Assembly (NCBI GenBank): GCA_011391175.1
Contig: JAABQZ010000012.1
Coordinates: 1-36,689 of the forward strand
DNA length: 36,689 nucleotides
From: Methylophilaceae bacterium
GTDB taxonomy: Bacteria; Pseudomonadota; Gammaproteobacteria; Burkholderiales; Methylophilaceae
Direction of reading: 5' to 3'
Numbering within the stretch: position 1 is the stretch's first letter; every line of letters begins with the position of its first letter. Positions 10,460 to 34,619 of this stretch are shown in pieces. The translations under genes and the position numbers were made by a program. The notes under the pieces were generated by a model, which worked only from the letters and a program-made list of their open reading frames with translations, did not search any database and was not told the origin of the DNA.

Positions 10460-11923
10460 TTGCAAATTAGCTATCCAAAATCGTTTTTAAAGTTACTGCT
10501 GATTGGCTTTGCGCTGGTGATGCTGCCTTTACTGATAGCGTTTGTAAACGCCAATATCTATTTTGACAAACTCACCAAACAAAGCTTATTTAATATGTCG
10601 CAAGCGGTGGAAACCACGCGCACCAGTCGCATTTTATTAGAGGAACTCGCTGTAATGGAACGTAGTGCGCGGCAATATTTTGTGTTGAAAGATAAGTTAT
10701 TGCTGACCAATTACCTGAATGCACACCGCCGTTTTAACAATGCCATCCATAGTTTACAACAGCAGCCAATGATTAAGCCGCTAGCCCCAGAACTTAAGCA
10801 ATTTTCTGCGCAAGAAGCTCGCTTACATTCCAGCATCAGTCAGGCCAGTGATGCTTTTGATTACGACCAAACAATTACGGATGCGTTTATTGATTTGAGT
10901 GGGCAGGCGAATAAAATTATTCAAGAAAACAATCAGTTAATTGACAAAGAATCTGCTTTGTTTACTGCCAAAGTGGCACGCACGCAGCGCTTGTTATTTT
11001 GGCAAACGCTCACACTCATCCCACTGGCCATTATCATCGCGGGCATTATCACCTGGATGATTGCGCGACCGATTCGCCGTATGGATGATGCGATTAACCA
11101 ACTAGGCTCTGGCAATTATGAACAAGCGATTAAAATTAATGGCCCTGGGGATTTACGCAAACTCGGCGCAAGGTTAGATTGGCTGCGTATTGCGCTAAAA
11201 GATTTACATCAGCAAAAGCAACACTTTTTACAGCAAGCTTCGCATGAGCTTAAAACACCGCTCACCGCTATTAGAGAAGCTAGTGAACTATTGAGTGATG
11301 GCACCACCGGTAAGCCAAGCACGCAACAGGCGGACGTGATTCGTATCTTGCGCGATAACAGTCTGCGTCTACAAAAGATGGTGGAAAACTTACTGAAATA
11401 CACCGAGATTCAATTCGCCAGCATACCCCTAAATGGATCCAAGAACGATTCCAAACTTAACATGAGTTCACAGCCTCTTAGTCGTATATTAGAAGAGATT
11501 TTGCAAGCGTATGAGTTAAGCATTAACAATAAAAAAATTGCAGTGCAAATCAATACTGAAAATATCACCATACAAAACAACACTGAAAAACTACGCAACA
11601 TATTGGATAATTTAATTTCAAATGCAGTCAAGTTTACTCCCGAACATGGCGAAATTAGCGTGACAGCTAGCCAAACTAAATCGACCATGACGATAACAGT
11701 AAAAGACACGGGGCCTGGTATTGCAGATAATAATAAATATGCGTTATTTGAGCCGTTTTATCGTGGCAACCAACCTAATACTGGTTTAGTATCTGGTAGT
11801 GGCCTAGGCTTATTTATTGCAAAAGAGGCTACCAACTCGCTCGGTGGGGTGCTTAGCCTCGTGCCGTGTAAAATAGGCGCTCATTTTACATTCACCATTC
11901 CAATGTCTAATTTAAACGCTTAA
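10460..11923 (+). CDS. glrK: envelope-sensing histidine kinase, GlrK/QseE type
   Basis: Membrane sensor kinase of a two-component system. One transmembrane segment lies at about 10-30, a helical periplasmic sensor region at 35-175, and a second segment at about 177-200. A HAMP domain (ARPIRRMDDAINQLGSGNY) follows, then HisKA with phospho-accepting H262 in SHELKTPL, and a HATPase with N-box (NLISNAVKFTP), DTGPGIA and GSGLGLFI. The start is a TTG; the first internal Met is at residue 20 inside the first membrane segment, so TTG gives the natural N-terminus. The downstream order of lipoprotein then sigma-54 regulator matches enterobacterial glrK-qseG-glrR and drives the naming. Confidence 0.88.
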   Translation: MQISYPKSFLKLLLIGFALVMLPLLIAFVNANIYFDKLTKQSLFNMSQAVETTRTSRILLEELAVMERSARQYFVLKDKLLLTNYLNAHRRFNNAIHSLQQQPMIKPLAPELKQFSAQEARLHSSISQASDAFDYDQTITDAFIDLSGQANKIIQENNQLIDKESALFTAKVARTQRLLFWQTLTLIPLAIIIAGIITWMIARPIRRMDDAINQLGSGNYEQAIKINGPGDLRKLGARLDWLRIALKDLHQQKQHFLQQASHELKTPLTAIREASELLSDGTTGKPSTQQADVIRILRDNSLRLQKMVENLLKYTEIQFASIPLNGSKNDSKLNMSSQPLSRILEEILQAYELSINNKKIAVQINTENITIQNNTEKLRNILDNLISNAVKFTPEHGEISVTASQTKSTMTITVKDTGPGIADNNKYALFEPFYRGNQPNTGLVSGSGLGLFIAKEATNSLGGVLSLVPCKIGAHFTFTIPMSNLNA

Positions 11924-11927
11924 CAAG

Positions 11928-12515
11928 ATGAAAACACGCACATTATTATTACTATGGGCCTGCCTAGGTACGGCATGTGTGAGCCCGGCAAGTCAAACAA
12001 ACTTACCTGCTAATATTAACCCGCCAGTGAAGGTCAACTCTACTAAAAACATAGATGCGATTGAATTTTTAACCTTTGCAGAAACTTTCTCTAACTCCCC
12101 TGCAGATTCGCAAAAGCAGGCGCTGATAGAAACGAACCGAGTGCTAGGGCTTAACCCTGATGACCTGTTGCATCGGATGAAGTTAGTAATGATTTATGGA
12201 CTACCCAGTAGCAGCTTACCTGACACGCCCAAAGCGCAAAACCTGTTACAGCAAATTTTGCAGGAAGGTATCTTAGAAAACTCGCAACTGGCATTTTCGA
12301 ATTTGCTATTTGACCATTTGGTGATGATCAATAAGGTAGCTAAAAGCAATAGCGGTGACCCGAAACGGCTAGAAAGCTTACAACAAAAAAACGAAGCCTT
12401 GCAAATTAAGTTAGATGCCACGCAGCAAAAGTTAGAGGCTGCCCAGCAAAAACTAGATGAGCTGAAGAAAATCGAAAAATCTATGGGCGAGCGTGAAGCT
12501 ACGCCCAAAAAATAG
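11928..12515 (+). CDS. qseG: QseG-like outer-membrane lipoprotein
   Basis: A 195-residue lipoprotein. The signal ends in a lipobox-like LGTAC, so the mature protein starts at Cys17. The middle is helical, and the C-terminal third (about 145-190) is a charged coiled coil with repeats of LDATQQKLEAAQQKL type. It starts 4 bases after the kinase stop and is followed by the response regulator gene. In enterobacteria QseG occupies this position and is an outer-membrane lipoprotein that activates the kinase. Sequence similarity is low-complexity, so the assignment rests mostly on position, lipobox and helical content. Confidence 0.65.
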   Translation: MKTRTLLLLWACLGTACVSPASQTNLPANINPPVKVNSTKNIDAIEFLTFAETFSNSPADSQKQALIETNRVLGLNPDDLLHRMKLVMIYGLPSSSLPDTPKAQNLLQQILQEGILENSQLAFSNLLFDHLVMINKVAKSNSGDPKRLESLQQKNEALQIKLDATQQKLEAAQQKLDELKKIEKSMGEREATPKK

Positions 12516-12546: not shown

Positions 12547-13917
12547 ATGATGCCACTAATTTTAATTGTTGATGATGATGCAGATATTTTAAAGCTGCTA
12601 GAAATGCGGCTTGCTGCCAGTGGCTATCAAGTCGCTAGCGCCCACTCTGCACAGCAAGCCTTATCCTTATTTAATATGAAGATGCCAGCACTCGTGATTA
12701 GTGATTTACGCATGCCAGATATGGATGGGTTTGCGTTGTTCGAAGCCATACACGCACTAAACCCTACCGTCCCGTTTATTCTACTGACTGCGCATGGCTC
12801 TATCCCCGAAGCGGTACGTGCCACGCAGCAAGGTGTGTTTAGTTTTTTAACCAAACCTTTCGATAGCAAAAATTTGCTGCAACAGGTTGAATACGCCCTC
12901 AAAATTGCACCTAGCGCGCAGCATGTATTATCTGAGGATAATAGCTGGTGTGCCAACATCGTATGTAGCAGCCAACAAATGCTAAGCCTGCTGGCGCAAG
13001 CCAAATTAATCGCAGCCTCAGATGCCAGCGTGCTCATTCAAGGCGAAAGTGGCACAGGCAAAGAGCTGCTAGCCCAAGCCATACATCAAGCCAGTGCGCG
13101 AAGAGATAAGCCTTTTGTGGCGATTAACTGTGCAGCGCTACCTGAGGCCTTGCTAGAATCTGAGTTATTTGGCCATAGCAAAGGCGCTTTTACTGGCGCC
13201 ACGCGCGACCATCAAGGCCTCATCAAAAACGCGCACGGTGGTACTTTATTTTTGGACGAAATTGGCGATATGCCACTGGCGATTCAAGTCAAGCTATTAC
13301 GCGCCTTACAAGAGCGCGTGATTCGCCCTGTCGGCTCTACCGAGCAAATTAGCATCGATATCCGTCTCATTTGCGCTACCCATAAAAATTTGCACGAAGC
13401 GATGCAAGCGAATCAATTCAGAGAAGACTTTTATTATCGAATTAACGTGGTGAGTTTAGAGATTCCACCACTCACCGCGCGGCGTGAAGATATCGCATTG
13501 TTAGCCAACCATTTTTTAGCGCACTTAAATAAAAAGTATCAAAAGAAACTCAACGGATTTGCTGCAGAAGCGCTTGAAACCTTGCTCGCAGCACCATGGC
13601 CAGGCAATGTACGGCAATTGCAAAACATTATTGAGCAGGTGGTGGTGCTAGCCACTACGCCCATTATTACCAACAATCTGGTGCAAAAAGCACTGCAAGA
13701 TAATGTTGCCAGCATGGTGTCGTTTGATGCCGCGCGCAAAAATTTTGAGCAGCAATATTTAATCAATCTACTTAAAGCTACGCAAGGCAATGTGACACAG
13801 GCAGCACGCATTGCTGATCGCAACCGTACAGATTTTTATAAGTTATTGCAGCGCCATCAAATCAATCCTGTCTTATTCAAAGACTCAGCACTCAAAGATT
13901 CACAAACCACAGATTAG
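12547..13917 (+). CDS. glrR: sigma-54-dependent response regulator, GlrR/QseF type
   Basis: NtrC-family activator of 456 residues. It has a receiver domain (1-120) with phospho-acceptor D53 in SDLRMPDMDG, then an AAA+ domain with Walker A GESGTGKE, the sigma-54-contacting GAFTGA (213-218), Walker B GGTLFLDEIGDM, and arginine-finger region FREDFYYRINV. A C-terminal Fis-type helix-turn-helix (NVTQAARIADRNRTDFYKLL) completes it. The intact GAFTGA means it should activate transcription, not only repress. It is the last gene of the glrK operon. Two GTC-N10-GAC sites and a -24/-12 promoter follow its stop codon, so the EF-hand gene is a likely target. Confidence 0.9.
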   Translation: MMPLILIVDDDADILKLLEMRLAASGYQVASAHSAQQALSLFNMKMPALVISDLRMPDMDGFALFEAIHALNPTVPFILLTAHGSIPEAVRATQQGVFSFLTKPFDSKNLLQQVEYALKIAPSAQHVLSEDNSWCANIVCSSQQMLSLLAQAKLIAASDASVLIQGESGTGKELLAQAIHQASARRDKPFVAINCAALPEALLESELFGHSKGAFTGATRDHQGLIKNAHGGTLFLDEIGDMPLAIQVKLLRALQERVIRPVGSTEQISIDIRLICATHKNLHEAMQANQFREDFYYRINVVSLEIPPLTARREDIALLANHFLAHLNKKYQKKLNGFAAEALETLLAAPWPGNVRQLQNIIEQVVVLATTPIITNNLVQKALQDNVASMVSFDAARKNFEQQYLINLLKATQGNVTQAARIADRNRTDFYKLLQRHQINPVLFKDSALKDSQTTD

Positions 13918-13935
13918 CGTCGCAAATTAGCGACA
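13918..13935 (+). promoter_or_regulatory. GlrR-like enhancer site 1 (CGTC-N10-GACA)
   Basis: CGTC GCAAATTAGC GACA directly abuts the glrR stop codon. It differs at one base from TGTC-N10-GACA, the known enterobacterial GlrR site, and has extra dyad symmetry (GTCGC with GCGAC). It is centred about 162 bases before the predicted start point. Confidence 0.65.
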
Positions 13936-13974
13936 AAAAAAGCCTTTAGTTTTCATCAAGTTATATTTTTTGCA

Positions 13975-14006
13975 AAAATACCGTCTCTAATTAGAGACGG
14001 TATTTT
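13975..14006. promoter_or_regulatory. GlrR-like enhancer site 2 inside a 32-bp perfect palindrome
   Basis: CGTC TCTAATTAGA GACG (13982-13999) lies in a perfect palindrome with A-tract and T-tract ends. The centre is 64 bases from that of site 1, close to six helical turns, and about 98 bases before the predicted start point, a normal enhancer position. The hairpin with TATTTT after it could also stop glrR transcription. Confidence 0.65.
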
Positions 14007-14062
14007 CTAAGAGCTTTCATGAAAATAATCTTAACTCATTGTTTTAAATAAACAAATAATTG

Positions 14063-14078
14063 TGGCACGGCAAATGCT
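14063..14078 (+). promoter_or_regulatory. sigma-54 (-24/-12) promoter
   Basis: TGGCACG, four bases (GCAA), then ATGCT matches the consensus TGGCACG-N4-TTGCW except the first T of the -12 box; the invariant GG and GC are at the correct spacing. The start would be near 14089, giving a ~33-base leader with the ribosome site TAGGAG. Confidence 0.75.
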
Positions 14079-14121
14079 AATACTAACCTGTAATAACTTT
14101 TTACTGTTTAGGAGTCACATC

Positions 14122-14475
14122 ATGAAGAAATTAAATCAATTGAGCACATTCAATAAAGCATCAATTATGCTTATCGCTGGTATTTCTTTAGCTAGCCTTA
14201 CAATTCCTTATGCAAAAGCAGAAACCAAAGTAAAAGATGTAGTGACGGAAGCGCCAGTTGATGCTGATTTCAAAAAGCTAGATGTGAACAGTGACAAAAA
14301 AATATCATTAAAAGAAGCCGTTAAAGATATATCGTTAGCGAAAAACTTTGATATGACCGACGCGAACAAAGATGGCAACATTACGCCAGATGAATTTGCT
14401 AGCTACAAAGCCAGCAATATGAAAAGTCTTGATAGCGCAGCTTCTATTGAAGCACCAGCACCTGTAACCCCATAA
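14122..14475 (+). CDS. periplasmic EF-hand protein
   Basis: A 117-residue exported protein. The N-terminal ~35 residues form a signal peptide ending YAKA. Two canonical 12-residue EF-hand loops follow: DVNSDKKISLKE and DANKDGNITPDE, each with Asp at 1, Asn/Asp ligands at 3 and 5, and Glu at 12. The tail is Ala/Pro rich. The frame opens 20 codons earlier, but the ATG at 14122 has the ribosome site TAGGAG and lies downstream of the sigma-54 promoter, so it was chosen. It is presumably a Ca2+ binder. Pro at loop position 2, as in lanmodulin, is absent. The promoter and position make it a candidate target of the adjacent GlrR-like activator. Confidence 0.88.
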   Translation: MKKLNQLSTFNKASIMLIAGISLASLTIPYAKAETKVKDVVTEAPVDADFKKLDVNSDKKISLKEAVKDISLAKNFDMTDANKDGNITPDEFASYKASNMKSLDSAASIEAPAPVTP

Positions 14476-14524
14476 ATTACCCGAGCAATAACCCTATAAG
14501 TCTCCCCTTAGATTTGTAGGTTTG

Positions 14525-14554
14525 GCCACACTGCCCAGCAGTGTGGCTTTTTTT
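14525..14554 (+). terminator. intrinsic terminator after the EF-hand gene
   Basis: A 10-base perfect stem (GCCACACTGC with GCAGTGTGGC), a 3-base loop CCA, and seven Ts form a strong rho-independent terminator on the plus strand. The minus-strand side lacks a T-run. Confidence 0.92.
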
Positions 14555-29131: not shown

Positions 29132-30148
29132 ATGAGCGACCGTCAATTGGCCGACTGGCGTCAACATGCGCTAACTTTAGAAGCTGAAGTGAATAAAGTG
29201 GTGGTTGGCCAAGCCAGCCCTATCCGCTTAATTACGACCGCGATTTTCGCGCGTGGTCACGTGTTGCTTGAGGGTGATGTAGGTGTAGGTAAAACCACGC
29301 TACTACGTGCCTTTACGCGTGGTATTGGGGGCGGTTACCAGCGTATTGAAGGCACCATTGACTTGATGCCTAACGATTTGGTATACCACACTTATTTGGG
29401 TGAAGATGGTAAACCGCATGTAAGCGCTGGCCCGTTACTCATGTCTGGCGAAAACTTGAGCGTGTTTTTCTTTAACGAGATTAACCGCGCACGCCCACAA
29501 GTGCACTCATTGCTATTACGTGTGATGGCCGAGCGTACTTTATCTGCATTTAATAAAGAGCACACTTTCCCTCACATGATTGTGTTTGCCGACCGCAACC
29601 AAGTGGAACGCGAAGAGACATTTGAAATTCCATCAGCTGCGCGTGACCGCTTTATGATGGAAATCCCGATTATTGTGCCAAATGACGATACGATTATGTC
29701 TAGCCTGATGTTCGATACGCGCTTCCATAATGCGGATGCCTTAATCGACACGGTTAAAGCCGATGTGTTGCAATTTGACCAGCTAAACGGCTTCTCTAGC
29801 GTGATTCAAAAAAGCGTGACGGCATCGCCTACGTTAGAAAAATATGCACTTAATTTGTGGAAAGCCACGCGCAACCCAACAGATTACGGCGTTAAAGTAA
29901 CCAATGTAGATATGAGCCGCCTTGTGCTCGCTGGTGCTAGCCCACGCGGCATGAGTATGATGTTGCGTGCCGCACGCGTAAACGCCTGGCTAAATGATCG
30001 CACCGCCATTACGCCTGAAGATATCCACGCCGTATTCCACGCAACGGTTGCCCACAGAATTGTGTTTAGCCCTGTATATGAAATGCGCCGTACCGAGATT
30101 GCACGTGAGATGTTGAGCAACATTGTCAACGTCGTTGCTGCGCCTTAA
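29132..30148 (+). CDS. mxaR: MoxR-family ATPase MxaR
   Basis: AAA+ MoxR ATPase of 338 residues, the first gene of the mxaRSACKL methanol-dehydrogenase maturation block. Walker A is GDVGVGKTT (48-56), Walker B FFNEINRA, then sensor and arginine-finger regions (IPSAARDRFMMEIPI) and the C-terminal lid. MoxR ATPases pair with von Willebrand A proteins as chaperone-like systems; here the partners are MxaS, MxaC and MxaL. A ribosome site AGGGA precedes the ATG. It is separated from mxaS by 17 bases. Confidence 0.93.
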   Translation: MSDRQLADWRQHALTLEAEVNKVVVGQASPIRLITTAIFARGHVLLEGDVGVGKTTLLRAFTRGIGGGYQRIEGTIDLMPNDLVYHTYLGEDGKPHVSAGPLLMSGENLSVFFFNEINRARPQVHSLLLRVMAERTLSAFNKEHTFPHMIVFADRNQVEREETFEIPSAARDRFMMEIPIIVPNDDTIMSSLMFDTRFHNADALIDTVKADVLQFDQLNGFSSVIQKSVTASPTLEKYALNLWKATRNPTDYGVKVTNVDMSRLVLAGASPRGMSMMLRAARVNAWLNDRTAITPEDIHAVFHATVAHRIVFSPVYEMRRTEIAREMLSNIVNVVAAP

Positions 30149-30165
30149 TAGCCAGCTTGTAAACA

Positions 30166-31029
30166 ATGTCAATCGAGGATATCAAAGAGTTCAGCTACCA
30201 CATCGGTTGGCGTAACCGTGGGCGCCACCCTGGCCGCCATGCAAGCACACAACGCGGCATGGGCATGGAGTTTATTGGGCATACTTCACTTCTTAATTAT
30301 CCCGACCCACGCCGTATCGATTTGCGCCAAACGCTGCGCGACCCGTTAGAACAAGTCTATGTCAGGCTGTTTAACCAAAAAAGTGCGACGCCAGTATTTG
30401 TAATTTGCGATTTATCGGGCAGCATGAATTTTGGTGCCAAAGAACGCAAAATTCGCAAAGCAGCGGATATTGCAGAATCTGTGGCAAGATCTGCCACGCG
30501 CAATGCTGATCCATTTGGTTTTGTGGGTTTTGATGATGTTGTTCGTGAAGATTGGATTAGCACTTCATCATTTAAATCACATCGCGCCATTGAACTGGCC
30601 GAGCGTCTAAAAGAATATCACCCACAGCATGTTTCTGGCGCGGGCGTTAGTGATGTGTGGCGTTTTTTACCACGCGAGCGCTCACTGGTGTTTATGATTT
30701 CTGATTTTCATATGCCGATGTCGCAACTTGAGGAATCCTTGTCAAACTTAACGCGCCATCATATTGTGCCTGTGGTGTTGTGGGATGCCGACGAATATAA
30801 AAACTTGCCTGAGTTTGGCATTACCGCAGTGACCGATCCTGAGTCTGGTCAAAAACGTACCCTATTCTTGCGCAAAGGTTATCGCGACAAAATCGTTAAA
30901 TCATTTGAATCGCGTCGGGAAGAAATTTACAAACTATTTATGCAATTTGATATGCCACCATTTTATGTGGAAGGCGATTTTGATGCCGATATGCTGACTG
31001 AGTATTTCCACCAATTTGTAGCTGCTTAA
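30166..31029 (+). CDS. mxaS: MxaS, DUF58/VWA-like protein
   Basis: A 287-residue cytoplasmic protein of the DUF58 family. It contains a metal-ion-dependent adhesion-site motif DLSGS (D82, S84, S86), later SGAGVSDVWRFLPRERSLVFMISDF, and a C-terminal extension. It acts in the maturation of the PQQ-dependent methanol dehydrogenase; genes of this type have been needed for active Ca-containing enzyme in methylotrophs. The exact step is not known. It lies between mxaR and mxaA with short gaps, consistent with one transcript. Confidence 0.88.
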   Translation: MSIEDIKEFSYHIGWRNRGRHPGRHASTQRGMGMEFIGHTSLLNYPDPRRIDLRQTLRDPLEQVYVRLFNQKSATPVFVICDLSGSMNFGAKERKIRKAADIAESVARSATRNADPFGFVGFDDVVREDWISTSSFKSHRAIELAERLKEYHPQHVSGAGVSDVWRFLPRERSLVFMISDFHMPMSQLEESLSNLTRHHIVPVVLWDADEYKNLPEFGITAVTDPESGQKRTLFLRKGYRDKIVKSFESRREEIYKLFMQFDMPPFYVEGDFDADMLTEYFHQFVAA

Positions 31030-31042
31030 AAACTAAACACTT

Positions 31043-32044
31043 ATGAAAAAATTAATGCGCAATTTATTACTGTCGATGATGCTTAGCTTAAGCACAGCAA
31101 ATGCTTACGCGCTAGATGTGACAAGGCTGCCAGATGTAAAAGAGGGCATCGTTAGCATTCAAACCCAAGACCCCATTAAAGATGTAGGTTATGTCATTGG
31201 CGATGTAGTGACGCGTCACATTACTTTAACCATTAAAAAACCTTATGTACTGATTGAAGAGTCGCTCCCAATTGTTGACTACGAAAAAACTTATCGTGGC
31301 AAACCGATTGGTGTTTATTTAAGCGCGCTTAAACACACCAAAAAAGATGAAGGCGATGAAGTCGTGCACCAATTAACACTGGACTATCAAATATTCACGT
31401 CGAGTGTCGTTGCTAAGCGCGCAGCTGTACTAGCGGAATATGTGCGTTTATTGAATACTGAGTCTAAAGATAGAGAAGTGGTCAAATATCGCGTACCGAT
31501 GTGGGAGTTTGTCATTTCCCCGCTGTCTGTGTTTGGTCAGATTAAAGTAGAAGATGACATGAGTCAATTTAGAGGTCCTTTGCTGATGGATGCCAGCAAG
31601 GAGAAAACCCGCCTTAAAACGGCGTTGGTACTTTTAGTATTAAGCTTGCTGGGCCTACTTTATATCGTTGGCAAAAATGCTTGGTTACCACGCATGGGTG
31701 GTCCATTTGCCAAAGCTTATCGCACCATTAAAAAACAAACCAATACACCACAAGGCATACAAGAGGCGGTTTCTAGCATGCATGCTGCGTTAAACACATC
31801 TGCTGGACATAGCCTATTTACTGATAATCTGGATGCATTTTTAGCAAAAAGACCCGCCTTTAAAGCGATTAAATCTGAGATACAACAATTCTTTGGCTTA
31901 TCCAACCAAGTGTTTTTTGAGGCGAATACCAAACATGACGTGGGTGCCGAACCGGTTGCTTGGCTTAAACAATTTTGCCGTCGCTGTCGCGATTGCGAAC
32001 GCGGCCTGATTCCTGACGCGTTGAGCCCAAAAAGTAAGGCTTAA
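31043..32044 (+). CDS. mxaA: MxaA, methanol dehydrogenase maturation protein
   Basis: A 333-residue exported membrane protein. A signal peptide (ending ANAYA) precedes a periplasmic domain (about 25-190), a transmembrane segment (about 193-212) and a cytoplasmic tail. The tail ends with a cysteine cluster CRRCRDC, which could bind a metal or form disulfides, depending on topology. In Methylobacterium, mxaA mutants make methanol dehydrogenase lacking Ca2+. It starts 13 bases after mxaS and ends 2 bases before mxaC. Confidence 0.88.
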   Translation: MKKLMRNLLLSMMLSLSTANAYALDVTRLPDVKEGIVSIQTQDPIKDVGYVIGDVVTRHITLTIKKPYVLIEESLPIVDYEKTYRGKPIGVYLSALKHTKKDEGDEVVHQLTLDYQIFTSSVVAKRAAVLAEYVRLLNTESKDREVVKYRVPMWEFVISPLSVFGQIKVEDDMSQFRGPLLMDASKEKTRLKTALVLLVLSLLGLLYIVGKNAWLPRMGGPFAKAYRTIKKQTNTPQGIQEAVSSMHAALNTSAGHSLFTDNLDAFLAKRPAFKAIKSEIQQFFGLSNQVFFEANTKHDVGAEPVAWLKQFCRRCRDCERGLIPDALSPKSKA

Positions 32045-32046
32045 GC

Positions 32047-33018
32047 ATGGCATTTTCGCATCCGTGGTTATTGTGGTTGCTACCCTTGGCTTTATTGCCT
32101 TTGGTGTTTCAGCGCGCACATAGCAAAAACTATTCATGGCTAGAGATGTTGCCTGCCGACCCACTATCAGACCTGGTTGGCCTGATTTTAAAAGCGTTAG
32201 CAGTGCTTACGCTGCTTTTTATTGTGCTGGGATTAAGCGCACCGCATACCAACCAGCAAGAAATTGAGCGCATCGGTGTGGGTGCTCAAATTGCTCTAGT
32301 GTTAGATAGAAGCGCCAGTATGGACGACCCCTTCTCAGGCACAGGCAGTGTTGCAGAAACCAAATCTGGCGCAGCGGCACGCTTGATTACCCAATTTGTA
32401 CAATCACGCAAAAACGATATGTTGGGCATGATTACTTTCAGCAACTCGGCGATGTATGTGTTACCGCTGACTGAAAATAAAGACACCATGGTAGCCGCCG
32501 TGCGTGCCACTGCTGGCAATGCGCTATTTCAAACCAATATTGGTAGCGGTCTTACCTCTGGCGCTGGCTTGTTTGAAAAAGTACCAGACTCTGGCTCTCG
32601 CGCAGTCATCTTGCTATCGGATGGTGCTGGCCGTATTGGCTCTGATGCGCAACAAAAAATACGTGATTGGTACGACCGCATGCACATTAGCCTATATTGG
32701 ATAGTATTGCGTCAACCAGGCGGTTTGAGTATTTTTGACAAAACTTATAAGCCTGACCCTGATAAAGCGCTGCCTGCCGAAATTGAGCTATATGAGTTCT
32801 TTAAAACCATGAAAACGCCGTTTAATGCTTATGAAGCAGAAGACCCAAAATCACTGCAATTGGCGATTGAAGATATTAATCGTAAAGAAAAAAAGCCGAT
32901 TAAGTACTTAGAAAAAATTCCTGGTAAAGATTTATCTAACCTTTGTTTTATATTAGCCGCCTGCATGATTGCACTGTTGCTGGGCGTAAAATACGTAGAG
33001 GTCAAAACATGGCATTAA
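32047..33018 (+). CDS. mxaC: MxaC, von Willebrand A membrane protein
   Basis: A 323-residue membrane protein with two N-terminal transmembrane segments (about 5-22 and 43-63), a VWA domain with MIDAS DRSAS (D87, S89, S91), and a C-terminal membrane segment (LCFILAACMIALLLGV). The layout is that of BatA-type proteins that work with MoxR ATPases. It is part of the mxa maturation set. The start is 2 bases after the mxaA stop, and its 3' end overlaps mxaK by 10 bases, showing tight coupling. Confidence 0.9.
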   Translation: MAFSHPWLLWLLPLALLPLVFQRAHSKNYSWLEMLPADPLSDLVGLILKALAVLTLLFIVLGLSAPHTNQQEIERIGVGAQIALVLDRSASMDDPFSGTGSVAETKSGAAARLITQFVQSRKNDMLGMITFSNSAMYVLPLTENKDTMVAAVRATAGNALFQTNIGSGLTSGAGLFEKVPDSGSRAVILLSDGAGRIGSDAQQKIRDWYDRMHISLYWIVLRQPGGLSIFDKTYKPDPDKALPAEIELYEFFKTMKTPFNAYEAEDPKSLQLAIEDINRKEKKPIKYLEKIPGKDLSNLCFILAACMIALLLGVKYVEVKTWH

Positions 33019-33593
33019 ACCTTACATCGCAAAATATCAGCCTAAAAGTCTCGCGATTTTTTACGGTTAAGAAACTCACATGGGCATTCAGTATTATCGC
33101 TTTACTGAGTGCAGCAGGCAGTGTTTACAGCTACCAACGTATCGGGCAAATTGATGCGTTTAATCAAGCCGTGCTGGCTGGAGAGCCTCCAGAAACTGAC
33201 CGGCAGAGCTTTGAAGCCAAGTTTGCCACCGCGTTATATTTAGCCAAAAAAGAACGCTATAAAGAATCTATTTTACTATTTACCGCATTGATGCCTATTG
33301 CTGCTGATAACAACCAGAAATCGGCGGTGCAATATAACATTGGCAATATTTCATTTTTGCGTGGGCTAGCGATTAACGGTAACAATATGACGGTTAAAGC
33401 TGAAGCTGAATACCTAGTGCGCCAAGCTAAAACAGCCTATGTCAATTCACTCAAGTTAGATAACAGCCATTGGGATGCAAAACATAATTTAGACCGCGTA
33501 CTGGGCATGCTGCCAAGCACACCCACTCCTGGCGTGGGTGATGGTGAAAAAGCCGGCCTTATTATGGGAAATGTGCCCGTGGGATTGCCTTAG
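33009..33593 (+). CDS. mxaK: MxaK, small membrane-anchored accessory protein
   Basis: A 194-residue protein with one N-terminal membrane segment (about 24-42) and a helical, TPR-like soluble part (for example FATALYLAKKERYKESILLFTALMPIAADN, and YVNSLKLDNSHWDAKHNLDRVLGML). The frame opens 22 codons earlier inside mxaC, but the ATG at 33009 has GAGG at the right distance, so it was chosen. Position between mxaC and mxaL and the size identify MxaK; function within maturation is not defined in detail. Confidence 0.82.
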   Translation: MALNLTSQNISLKVSRFFTVKKLTWAFSIIALLSAAGSVYSYQRIGQIDAFNQAVLAGEPPETDRQSFEAKFATALYLAKKERYKESILLFTALMPIAADNNQKSAVQYNIGNISFLRGLAINGNNMTVKAEAEYLVRQAKTAYVNSLKLDNSHWDAKHNLDRVLGMLPSTPTPGVGDGEKAGLIMGNVPVGLP

Positions 33594-33608
33594 TCATTTG
33601 TAAATATT

Positions 33609-34619
33609 ATGCATAAACTAGTTAACTATTTTCGTCATCGCCGTGATATTACGCTGCTGAGCATTGCGCTGTTGTTGCTTGTGATTGCGTTGTTTAAACC
33701 AACCATTCCTATCAAGCGCAACATTTACAGCTACATGTTGGTGGCAGATATATCGCAAAGTATGAACGTCGTCGATATGCAGCTAAATGGCAAGCCTGTG
33801 ACACGCATGAAATATCAACAACATTTATTGCACCGCATTATTGGTGAAATGCCCTGCGGCACACAAGTCAGTATCGGCCTATTTGCAGGCGTCAGCGTGG
33901 CTGCGTTGTATACGCCCATTGAAGTATGCCAAAATTTTGCTGCGATTGAAGATACCATTGACCACCTAGATTGGCGTAATGGCTGGTCTGGCAATAGTCG
34001 AGTACGTGAGAGCATGGTCACACTGGCTAAGCTCATTCGTAGCTTTCCCGAGCCGGCACAAGTAGTATATTTTAGTGACGGCGAAGAAACACCTAAACTG
34101 CATATTTTTAATACCCGTGATTTAACAGGTTTTCAAGGCGGTAAAGATTGGTTACTAGTGGGCATTGGAAGCGATAAAGGCACCGCCATTCCCAAACTCG
34201 ACGAAAAAAATCAGCTAATCGGCTATTGGTCTGCTGAGAGTTTTGCCATGCAACCTGGTGTTGCACAAATTGCGCAAGAAAACATTGGCGCACGTGAAGA
34301 CAGCGTGGCCAGCTCAGAAAGTGATCGCTACATGTCGCGCCTAGATGAGAAGTATTTAATTTCAGTCGCCAAAGAAATCAGTGCTAATTATGTCAATGGT
34401 AACAGTCTACAAAACATTCTGACCGCCATGAAAAATCAACCTCCTGCACGTCGCGAAAAAGCTGCCTTCGATTTAAAATGGATTGTCGCTGGGATTGCGG
34501 GCTTGTTATTCTTGGCCGCTTATATGCCGAAACACCCGATCAAAGAATCGAATGAAATGTTCAAGAACTTTATTGCACGTAGAAAGCGTCAATCATTAGT
34601 TACAACCAAGTCTTCTTGA
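33609..34619 (+). CDS. mxaL: MxaL, von Willebrand A membrane protein
   Basis: A 336-residue membrane protein with an N-terminal segment (about 14-30), a VWA domain with MIDAS DISQS (D47, S49, S51) and VVYFSDGEE, and a C-terminal membrane segment (WIVAGIAGLLFLAAY). In Methylobacterium, mxaL, with mxaA and mxaK, is required for Ca2+ insertion into methanol dehydrogenase. It closes the mxa block here; no mxaD follows. Its 3' end overlaps the convergent ygfX gene by 31 bases. Confidence 0.9.
   Translation: MHKLVNYFRHRRDITLLSIALLLLVIALFKPTIPIKRNIYSYMLVADISQSMNVVDMQLNGKPVTRMKYQQHLLHRIIGEMPCGTQVSIGLFAGVSVAALYTPIEVCQNFAAIEDTIDHLDWRNGWSGNSRVRESMVTLAKLIRSFPEPAQVVYFSDGEETPKLHIFNTRDLTGFQGGKDWLLVGIGSDKGTAIPKLDEKNQLIGYWSAESFAMQPGVAQIAQENIGAREDSVASSESDRYMSRLDEKYLISVAKEISANYVNGNSLQNILTAMKNQPPARREKAAFDLKWIVAGIAGLLFLAAYMPKHPIKESNEMFKNFIARRKRQSLVTTKSS

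Follow-up and report, generated by a model that had tools for sequence, protein, structure and literature searches.

The stretch of DNA analysed here (the window; 36,689 nucleotides of contig JAABQZ010000012.1, assembly GCA_011391175.1, from a Methylophilaceae bacterium) contains a sensor kinase gene, a small gene and a glrR gene in the order found in E. coli (locus L197). They are followed by two predicted GlrR sites, a predicted sigma-54 promoter, a gene for a small EF-hand protein and, behind the stop codon of the latter, a hairpin and an intrinsic terminator (Table 1). Pfam and NCBIfam searches with the product of the small gene between kinase and regulator returned no match. A gene for a PepSY-domain protein (PF03413; 14576-15103, minus strand) is convergent with the EF-hand unit, and a run of genes at 29132-34619 resembles by eye the MoxR/mxa accessory cluster of methanol dehydrogenase, which is consistent with a methylotroph. 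Four Methylotenera MAGs are among the nearest named relatives by GlrR protein (75-94% identity); Methylotenera belongs to the Methylophilaceae, Betaproteobacteria. The family, order and class samples used below we take to be the Methylophilaceae, Burkholderiales and Gammaproteobacteria of the GTDB.

Table 1. Features of the glrR locus and the adjoining EF-hand unit (positions in the window)
Feature	Positions	Strand	Basis or remark
glrK/qseE-like sensor histidine kinase	10460..11923	+	HAMP, HisKA, HATPase_c
Small lipoprotein-like gene in the qseG position	11928..12515	+	named from position and by eye
glrR/qseF response regulator, sigma-54 activator with GAFTGA and Fis-type HTH	12547..13917	+	Sigma54_activat 2.9e-73; 55% identity to E. 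coli GlrR
Predicted GlrR site 1 (UAS)	13918..13935	.	sequence and conservation
Predicted GlrR site 2 (UAS), within a 32-nt perfect palindrome (13976-14007)	13982..13999	.	
IHF-like site (1 mismatch) in the interval from site 2 to the promoter	14032..14044	-	
Predicted sigma-54 -24/-12 promoter	14063..14078	+	predicted start ~14089
Small EF-hand protein, 117 aa, two EF loops	14122..14475	+	export signal by eye; PF00036
3'UTR hairpin with C-rich apex CUCCCCUUAG	14493..14520	+	fold, covariation, model R1
Intrinsic terminator at transcript end	14524..14554	+	terminator scan and fold

The regulator has the architecture of GlrR, with a receiver, a sigma-54 AAA+ domain carrying the GAFTGA motif and a Fis-type helix-turn-helix (HTH), and it is encoded beside a kinase and a small gene. 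Among the NCBIfam models, the GlrR model NF011695 matched it best (608.4 bits, under its curated cut-off of 763; the next model scored 420), and its HTH_8 match was just below the cut-off (21.8 versus 22.0 bits). The HTH is nearly identical in the two proteins, GNVTQAARIADRNRTDFYKLL in the window and GNVTHAARMAGRNRTEFYKLL in E. coli GlrR. The gene had originally been taken for a GAFTGA-containing regulator of the GlrR family, an assignment that these matches and the overall identity of 55% to E. coli GlrR bear out. The order of kinase, small gene and regulator is likewise common to the window and the E. coli GlrK-QseG-GlrR system (QseEGF).

Site 1, CGTCGCAAATTAGCGACA, begins on the base directly after the glrR stop codon (13915-13917), and site 2, CGTCTCTAATTAGAGACG, follows at a GTC-to-GTC distance of 64 bp. 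The letters and coordinates of this GTC-N10-GAC pair agree with the original prediction. Its likeness to the enterobacterial motif TGTC-N10-GACA, also claimed there, extends to the GTC-N10-GAC core; the leading T is missing from both sites; site 1 has one mismatch and site 2 has two. The -24/-12 promoter was found where it had been placed. Its sequence, TGGCACGGCAAATGCT, has GG and GC 10 bases apart (GG-N10-GC) and one mismatch to TGGCAC-N5-TTGC, with A replacing the first T of TTGC. The gene for sigma-54 (RpoN) is present in the genome. Within the window, TGTC-N10-GACA with at most one mismatch had 7 matches versus 8.96 expected, and TGGCAC-N5-TTGCW with at most two mismatches had 27 versus 33.6 expected, no excess over chance in either case. 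As the single elements occur at chance level in the window, their significance rests on the conserved arrangement.

Enterobacterial GlrR is described in excerpts of PMC6075780 as using an upstream activating sequence (UAS) TGT-N12-ACA, with IHF assistance, in the sigma-54 control of glmY and rpoE. The gene order in E. coli MG1655 is glmY-glrK-qseG-glrR, and three TGT-N12-ACA sites are found upstream of glmY, two of which, TGTCGCTTTCTGGCGACA and TGTCTCTTTTTAGCGACA, lie 63 bp apart. The GTC-N10-GAC motif and a distance of ~63-64 bp between two sites are common to the window and E. coli glmY. This motif match, together with the near-identical HTH, supports the prediction that the window sites form a GlrR enhancer. 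The targets differ in both place and kind: glmY of E. coli precedes glrK and yields nothing but an sRNA, whereas the predicted target of the window lies downstream of glrR and comprises an EF-hand protein and an RNA with a C-rich loop.

The GlrR search gave 53 matches in 50 of the 150 family genomes, and 50 family loci remained after the second copy in G062 and the matches on G112:C71 and in G060, the last two of which were read separately, had been set aside. The DNA after the glrR stop codon was read in these 50 loci, once oriented, in 26 further loci from the order and in 28 from the class. A strict rule (an exact GTC-N10-GAC pair, 58-72 bp apart, and then a GG-N10-GC promoter) was fitted by 35/50 family and 11/26 order loci, compared with 0/5,000 and 0/2,600 dinucleotide shuffles (0/7,600 together). 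With a looser rule, which requires one exact site and a promoter no more than 500 nt after the glrR stop codon, these numbers rose to 42/50 family, 19/26 order and 10/28 class loci (shuffles: 1/2,000, 2/1,040 and 4/1,120). The family consensus of the site is mostly TGTC[G/T]C-N6-G[C/A]GACA. The proposal that both sites lie on the same face of the DNA is only loosely supported; the spacing of the pair is 64 bp (13 loci), 65 bp (19 loci) or 66 bp (3 loci) in the 35 family loci and 65-68 bp in the order loci. Measured between the G of site 2 and the T of TGGCA, the distance to the promoter is 79-83 bp in all but one of the 35 family loci, and 101 bp in the remaining one.

In the genome of the window the exact pair pattern occurs once, at glrR. 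The glrR-positive genomes also include G047, which has no exact pair, its first site being imperfect. Among five glrR-negative relatives, the pair was absent from G022, G050, G059 and G099 and occurred three times in G105, where the reversed-pattern control occurred six times. The reversed control was at least as frequent as the pair pattern in most genomes, and the genome-wide pair count alone is therefore weak; more telling is that in the four glrR-positive genomes of the same genus the single copy is the one at glrR.

IHF-like sites were counted with at most one mismatch to WATCAANNNNTTR, which we take to be the IHF consensus, in 46 of the 50 family loci (all except L011, L033, L037 and L050; the promoters of L015 and L046 were assigned by hand). 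A minus-strand site in a nearly constant position, -28 to -32, between site 2 and the promoter, is present in 36/46 loci versus 5.7 expected, and at the same place 23/46 loci have the exact consensus on either strand versus 0.64 expected. Between the two GlrR sites, a plus-strand site is found in 32/46 loci versus 4.6 expected. The window (L002) has the promoter-side site with one mismatch, and no between-site copy was found in it at one mismatch or fewer. The GlrR/sigma-54 reading of the original prediction is supported; what it overlooked are these IHF-like sites and, more importantly, the C-rich-loop RNA at the end of the transcript.

The gene behind the promoter does encode an EF-hand protein, as had been proposed. 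Its EF loops are canonical; PF00036 matched with 30.0 bits (cut-off 25.4), PF13405 and PF13202 were also above their cut-offs, and PF13499 was just under. Scanning with a regular expression for the EF loop, we found an ORF with at least two loops within 1.5 kb after glrR in 34/50 family, 4/26 order and 10/28 class loci, compared with one loop in 1/104 loci in the antisense control. An EF-hand neighbour is thus no peculiarity of the window. Elsewhere, the promoter is followed by genes that by eye encode an EF-hand with a BON-like tail or BON-like, glycine-zipper-like or CsbD-like proteins. The EF-hand neighbour of glrR is probably old and in places has been replaced or is absent. The protein is probably exported, to judge by the signal recognized by eye.

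Taken together, these comparisons make it very likely that the window locus holds a GlrR/sigma-54 unit. The sites themselves could nevertheless be read in two other ways. The 32-nt palindrome around site 2 folds as RNA at -19.3 kcal/mol (z -6.2) and might serve just to end the glrK - small gene - glrR operon as its terminator, with no GlrR site in it; 8 of the 35 second sites, including that of the window, have a palindromic extension of 6-8 bp. However, 12 of the 35 have no extension and 10 have a single base pair, and only the inner GTC-N10-GAC is conserved throughout. The fixed distances to site 1 and to the promoter also speak against this reading. Moreover, the four T after the palindrome form part of its stem, and a scan for terminators gave no match there. 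A terminator in place of a GlrR site is accordingly improbable, although the second palindrome could double as the operon end besides being a predicted GlrR site. A different sigma-54 activator, such as a PrsR-like exopolysaccharide regulator, might use the sites instead of GlrR. In G011 and G014 (L182, L183, L187 and L189), further pairs with sigma-54-like promoters lie before genes that by eye are WecG/TagA-, EpsA-like-regulator- and bactofilin-like, so the motif may be common to related activators and may be shared with an exopolysaccharide (PrsR-like) one. Against this, among the genomes of the same genus that were tested, the pair is present in 4/4 with glrR and 0/3 without it, even though the latter retain 5-7 other activator matches, and E. 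coli glmY carries the same sites. We hold the use of the window sites by such an activator in place of GlrR to be very unlikely indeed. Of 15 extra GTC-N10-GAC pairs picked by eye in six genomes, 12 have a sigma-54-like match (score at least 6) within 260 nt, and some stand before exopolysaccharide-type genes.

The DNA after the EF-hand stop codon (14493-14554) specifies a hairpin with a C-rich, anti-Shine-Dalgarno-like loop and then the intrinsic terminator; the segment 14487-14554 folds at -31.7 kcal/mol (z -7.5). In an alignment of this two-hairpin module (24 copies taken at 23 loci in genera g1, g7 and g20), 15/17 pairs are changed on both sides, and the loop remains C-rich while the stem sequence changes. 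Pairing is found in 95.1% of the cells versus 76.6% in shuffled alignments, 0/500 shuffles match any of five measures, and sliding of the pairing partners lowers pairing to 30-42%. Because the copies of the model were first gathered by a hairpin finder, the pairing is inflated and the covariation partly circular; matches outside the model and occurrence in a single place are independent of this selection. A strict module finder recovered the module in 21/23 loci (missing L008 and L031) compared with 1/460 shuffles and 0/388 segments from glrR and upstream. The covariance model, R1, matched 27/150 family genomes. Of these matches, 26 were judged real, and that in G099 (33 bits, at an unrelated place) was taken as a chance match. 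There is one copy per genome, save for a tandem pair in G090. The window copy scores 65.8 bits, being itself part of the model.

Matches of R1 outside the model were obtained in G102, G142 and G061. The sites (the first imperfect in G142), promoter, EF-hand gene and module are all present in G102 and G142, and in G061 the contig opens within the promoter, part of GlrR being found on a different contig. The module accompanies glrR in 6/6 glrR-positive genomes of g1, 6/6 of g20 and 13/14 of g7, the exception being G060, whose sole GlrR relative is 53% identical; R1 had no match in the nine glrR-negative g1 genomes listed. An outside test used nine named loci with a GlrR identity of at least 75%, six of them from genomes included before. 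The remaining three (L242, L244 and L246) all have two exact sites, a promoter, a two-loop EF-hand ORF and, behind it, a match to R1 (33.7, 44.8 and 28.3 bits; E 1e-5, 3e-8 and 2e-4, respectively).

Four genomes (G048, G057, G132 and G135) carry the RNA without the protein. In these, the C-rich hairpin and terminator come directly behind the same promoter, a few bases at most from the expected start. In three of the genomes no ORF of at least 40 codons begins in the 400 nt that follow, and G132 has a 45-codon ORF past the terminator. An alignment of the four loci shows hardly any change in the two sites, the promoter and the RNA, and much of the surrounding DNA has diverged. Relocation of the EF-hand gene was considered and rejected, as the rest of these genomes gave nothing beyond weak matches to the EF motif. 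In a GlrR tree (built without L028, which has 9 aa), the four form one clade (support 100/99) beside G144, in which the EF-hand gene is present together with the same hairpin as in the RNA-only clade. Most simply, the ORF was lost once and the RNA was kept.

In genera g2, g3, g5, g11, g12, g13, g15, g17, g18, g22 and g23, the C-rich loop is located in the terminator of the GlrR operon itself (e.g. AGCGGGCCTTCATCTCCCCGAGAAGGTCCGCT). In either form, the element is found in 43/50 family loci (23 with two hairpins, 6 in g11 and 14 in longer operons). The downstream DNA of L020 was read too short a distance to count, the unit of L033 (contig end) and L037 is on another contig or further off, and no C-rich element was found after glrR in L043, L044, L046 and L050. 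The single-hairpin form has 8/11 pairs changed on both sides in 12 rows that were picked as hairpins. Alignment A3 was made without L167, and A4 consists of 12 of the 19 A3 rows (the family rows without L146). In 11 genomes chosen as carriers, the commonest single-hairpin pattern occurs only at the end of the GlrR operon, once in each and with no matches of the reversed control; it occurs twice in G062, where glrR is duplicated. Operons of the order were read in 20/26 loci, to 3 kb and with up to three terminators each. A C-rich-loop terminator is present in 8/20 of these (L165-L168, L170, L172, L181 and L174, the last far downstream and doubtful), and none of the terminators listed for the other 12 has such a loop. 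Class loci with site and promoter have no clear C-rich element.

Rfam searches of six loci, namely L002 and L010 together with the RNA-only four, gave nothing near a gathering score, and the only weak match to the element was RF02278, a toxic sRNA of Betaproteobacteria (26.7 bits, E 0.15, gathering score 50). The two are alike in having a C-rich (CUCC) segment followed by a terminator. We reject RF02278 as the identity of the 3' element: 0/30 oriented copies of it have a GlrR site and promoter in the 500 nt upstream, and its matches (98/150 order genomes at E of 0.001 or less) include neither the own genome nor the three other family genomes listed there. Homology to GlmY/GlmZ was likewise discarded, as neither had an Rfam match with E of 1 or less in the six loci.

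The CcsR RNAs carry a C-rich anti-Shine-Dalgarno motif, and the GlnZ promoter is sigma-54-controlled. According to parts of PMC10253847, the Rhodobacter CcaF1-CcsR locus (CIN1 locus, 'cuckoo' RNAs) produces a small protein and then sRNAs on one transcript that ends in a terminator, and in this it resembles the window. It differs in belonging to Alphaproteobacteria and in having RpoH promoters, a DUF1127 protein and four RNA copies, and those parts of the paper mention neither GlrR nor sigma-54. The GlnZ-type sRNA is released from the 3'UTR of the glnA mRNA (excerpts of PMC9731577) and is in this respect like the window candidate; it is a different RNA that belongs to nitrogen metabolism, whereas the window has GlrR and an envelope gene. 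Bordetella S17 is a conserved betaproteobacterial sRNA driven by sigma-A, as stated in a portion of PMC11722255.

The site pair, the promoter, the EF-hand neighbour, the covarying hairpin, the co-occurrence with glrR and the retention of the RNA without the ORF are established by sequence comparison. On this basis we consider it likely that the locus is a GlrR/sigma-54 unit that would make an envelope protein and a probable 3'UTR-derived sRNA. Phosphorylated GlrR, from the kinase - small gene - regulator cluster upstream, would bind both sites, IHF would bend the DNA, and GlrR would activate RNA polymerase-sigma-54 at the promoter, with transcription starting near 14089. The transcript would encode the EF-hand protein and then contain the anti-Shine-Dalgarno-like C-rich hairpin and the terminator. 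The hairpin-terminator piece would most likely be a small RNA, processed from the 3'UTR or, where the ORF has been lost, produced directly, and its C-rich loop may pair with the ribosome-binding sites of targets. We lean towards a trans-acting RNA.

The main alternative for the 3' element accepts the enhancer and promoter as real but sees in the C-rich hairpin just a stabiliser of the 3' end, or a piece of the terminator, that does not act on other RNAs. Most other genera do carry the C-rich loop within the terminator itself, and a target scan gave no signal: in five glrR-positive genomes of the same genus, complements of the loop stood before start codons 9 times, against 5 times for the reversed control, which supports no RNA target. 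In two glrR-negative genomes of the genus the counts were 7 and 6, and the matched strings differ among genomes. A stabiliser is harder to reconcile with the nearly identical hairpin and promoter of the four genomes that have no ORF, and with a loop that stays C-rich though the stems vary. Moreover, of 106 distinct terminator-like hairpins in all loci collected, 23 have a C-rich loop, and 21 of these 23 are at GlrR operon ends. A stabilising role alone is therefore rather unlikely in our view, and it carries appreciably more weight than either of the alternatives for the sites.

In the literature found, the targets of GlrR (QseF) are presented in terms of glmY and rpoE in enterobacteria, and none of the titles and abstract beginnings concerns GlrR control of an EF-hand gene or of a C-rich-loop RNA. 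In the transcript literature, the terms 'EF-hand' and 'non-coding' do not occur in the main text of PMC3728764. In the loci compared here, the GlrR-type enhancer has a conserved EF-hand neighbour, across the family and part of the class-wide sample, and a candidate sRNA with no Rfam match above threshold is located at the transcript end. Tentatively, and with slightly less than even confidence, we suggest a broader picture, in which the GlrR enhancer outside the enterobacteria would run an envelope (EF-hand/BON/glycine-zipper) operon with an mRNA that ends in a trans-acting anti-Shine-Dalgarno RNA. In the order, the most persistent output would be the RNA and not the protein, and driving an sRNA would be a job of GlrR shared from beta- to gamma-proteobacteria, carried out via unrelated RNAs. 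The locus offers a direct test case for a two-component system that keeps the task of making a small RNA while the RNA and protein parts are swapped, and a natural case of a 3'UTR RNA apparently freed through loss of the ORF.

At a distance from GlrR, close to the far end of L146 and L147, the minus strand has a C-rich-loop terminator of similar appearance (AGCGAGCCATARTCTCCCCAGATATGGCTCGCT) that follows a gene resembling one for an outer-membrane receptor. In L158, L159 and L160 (G084, G112 and G060), a sigma-54-like promoter and small genes of unrelated kinds lie behind a second GlrR-like regulator (53-61% identical), and the exact pair is absent. L041 (G090) contains the whole unit of sites, promoter, EF-hand gene and C-rich hairpin in tandem, at 154 and 1102 nt past the glrR stop codon.
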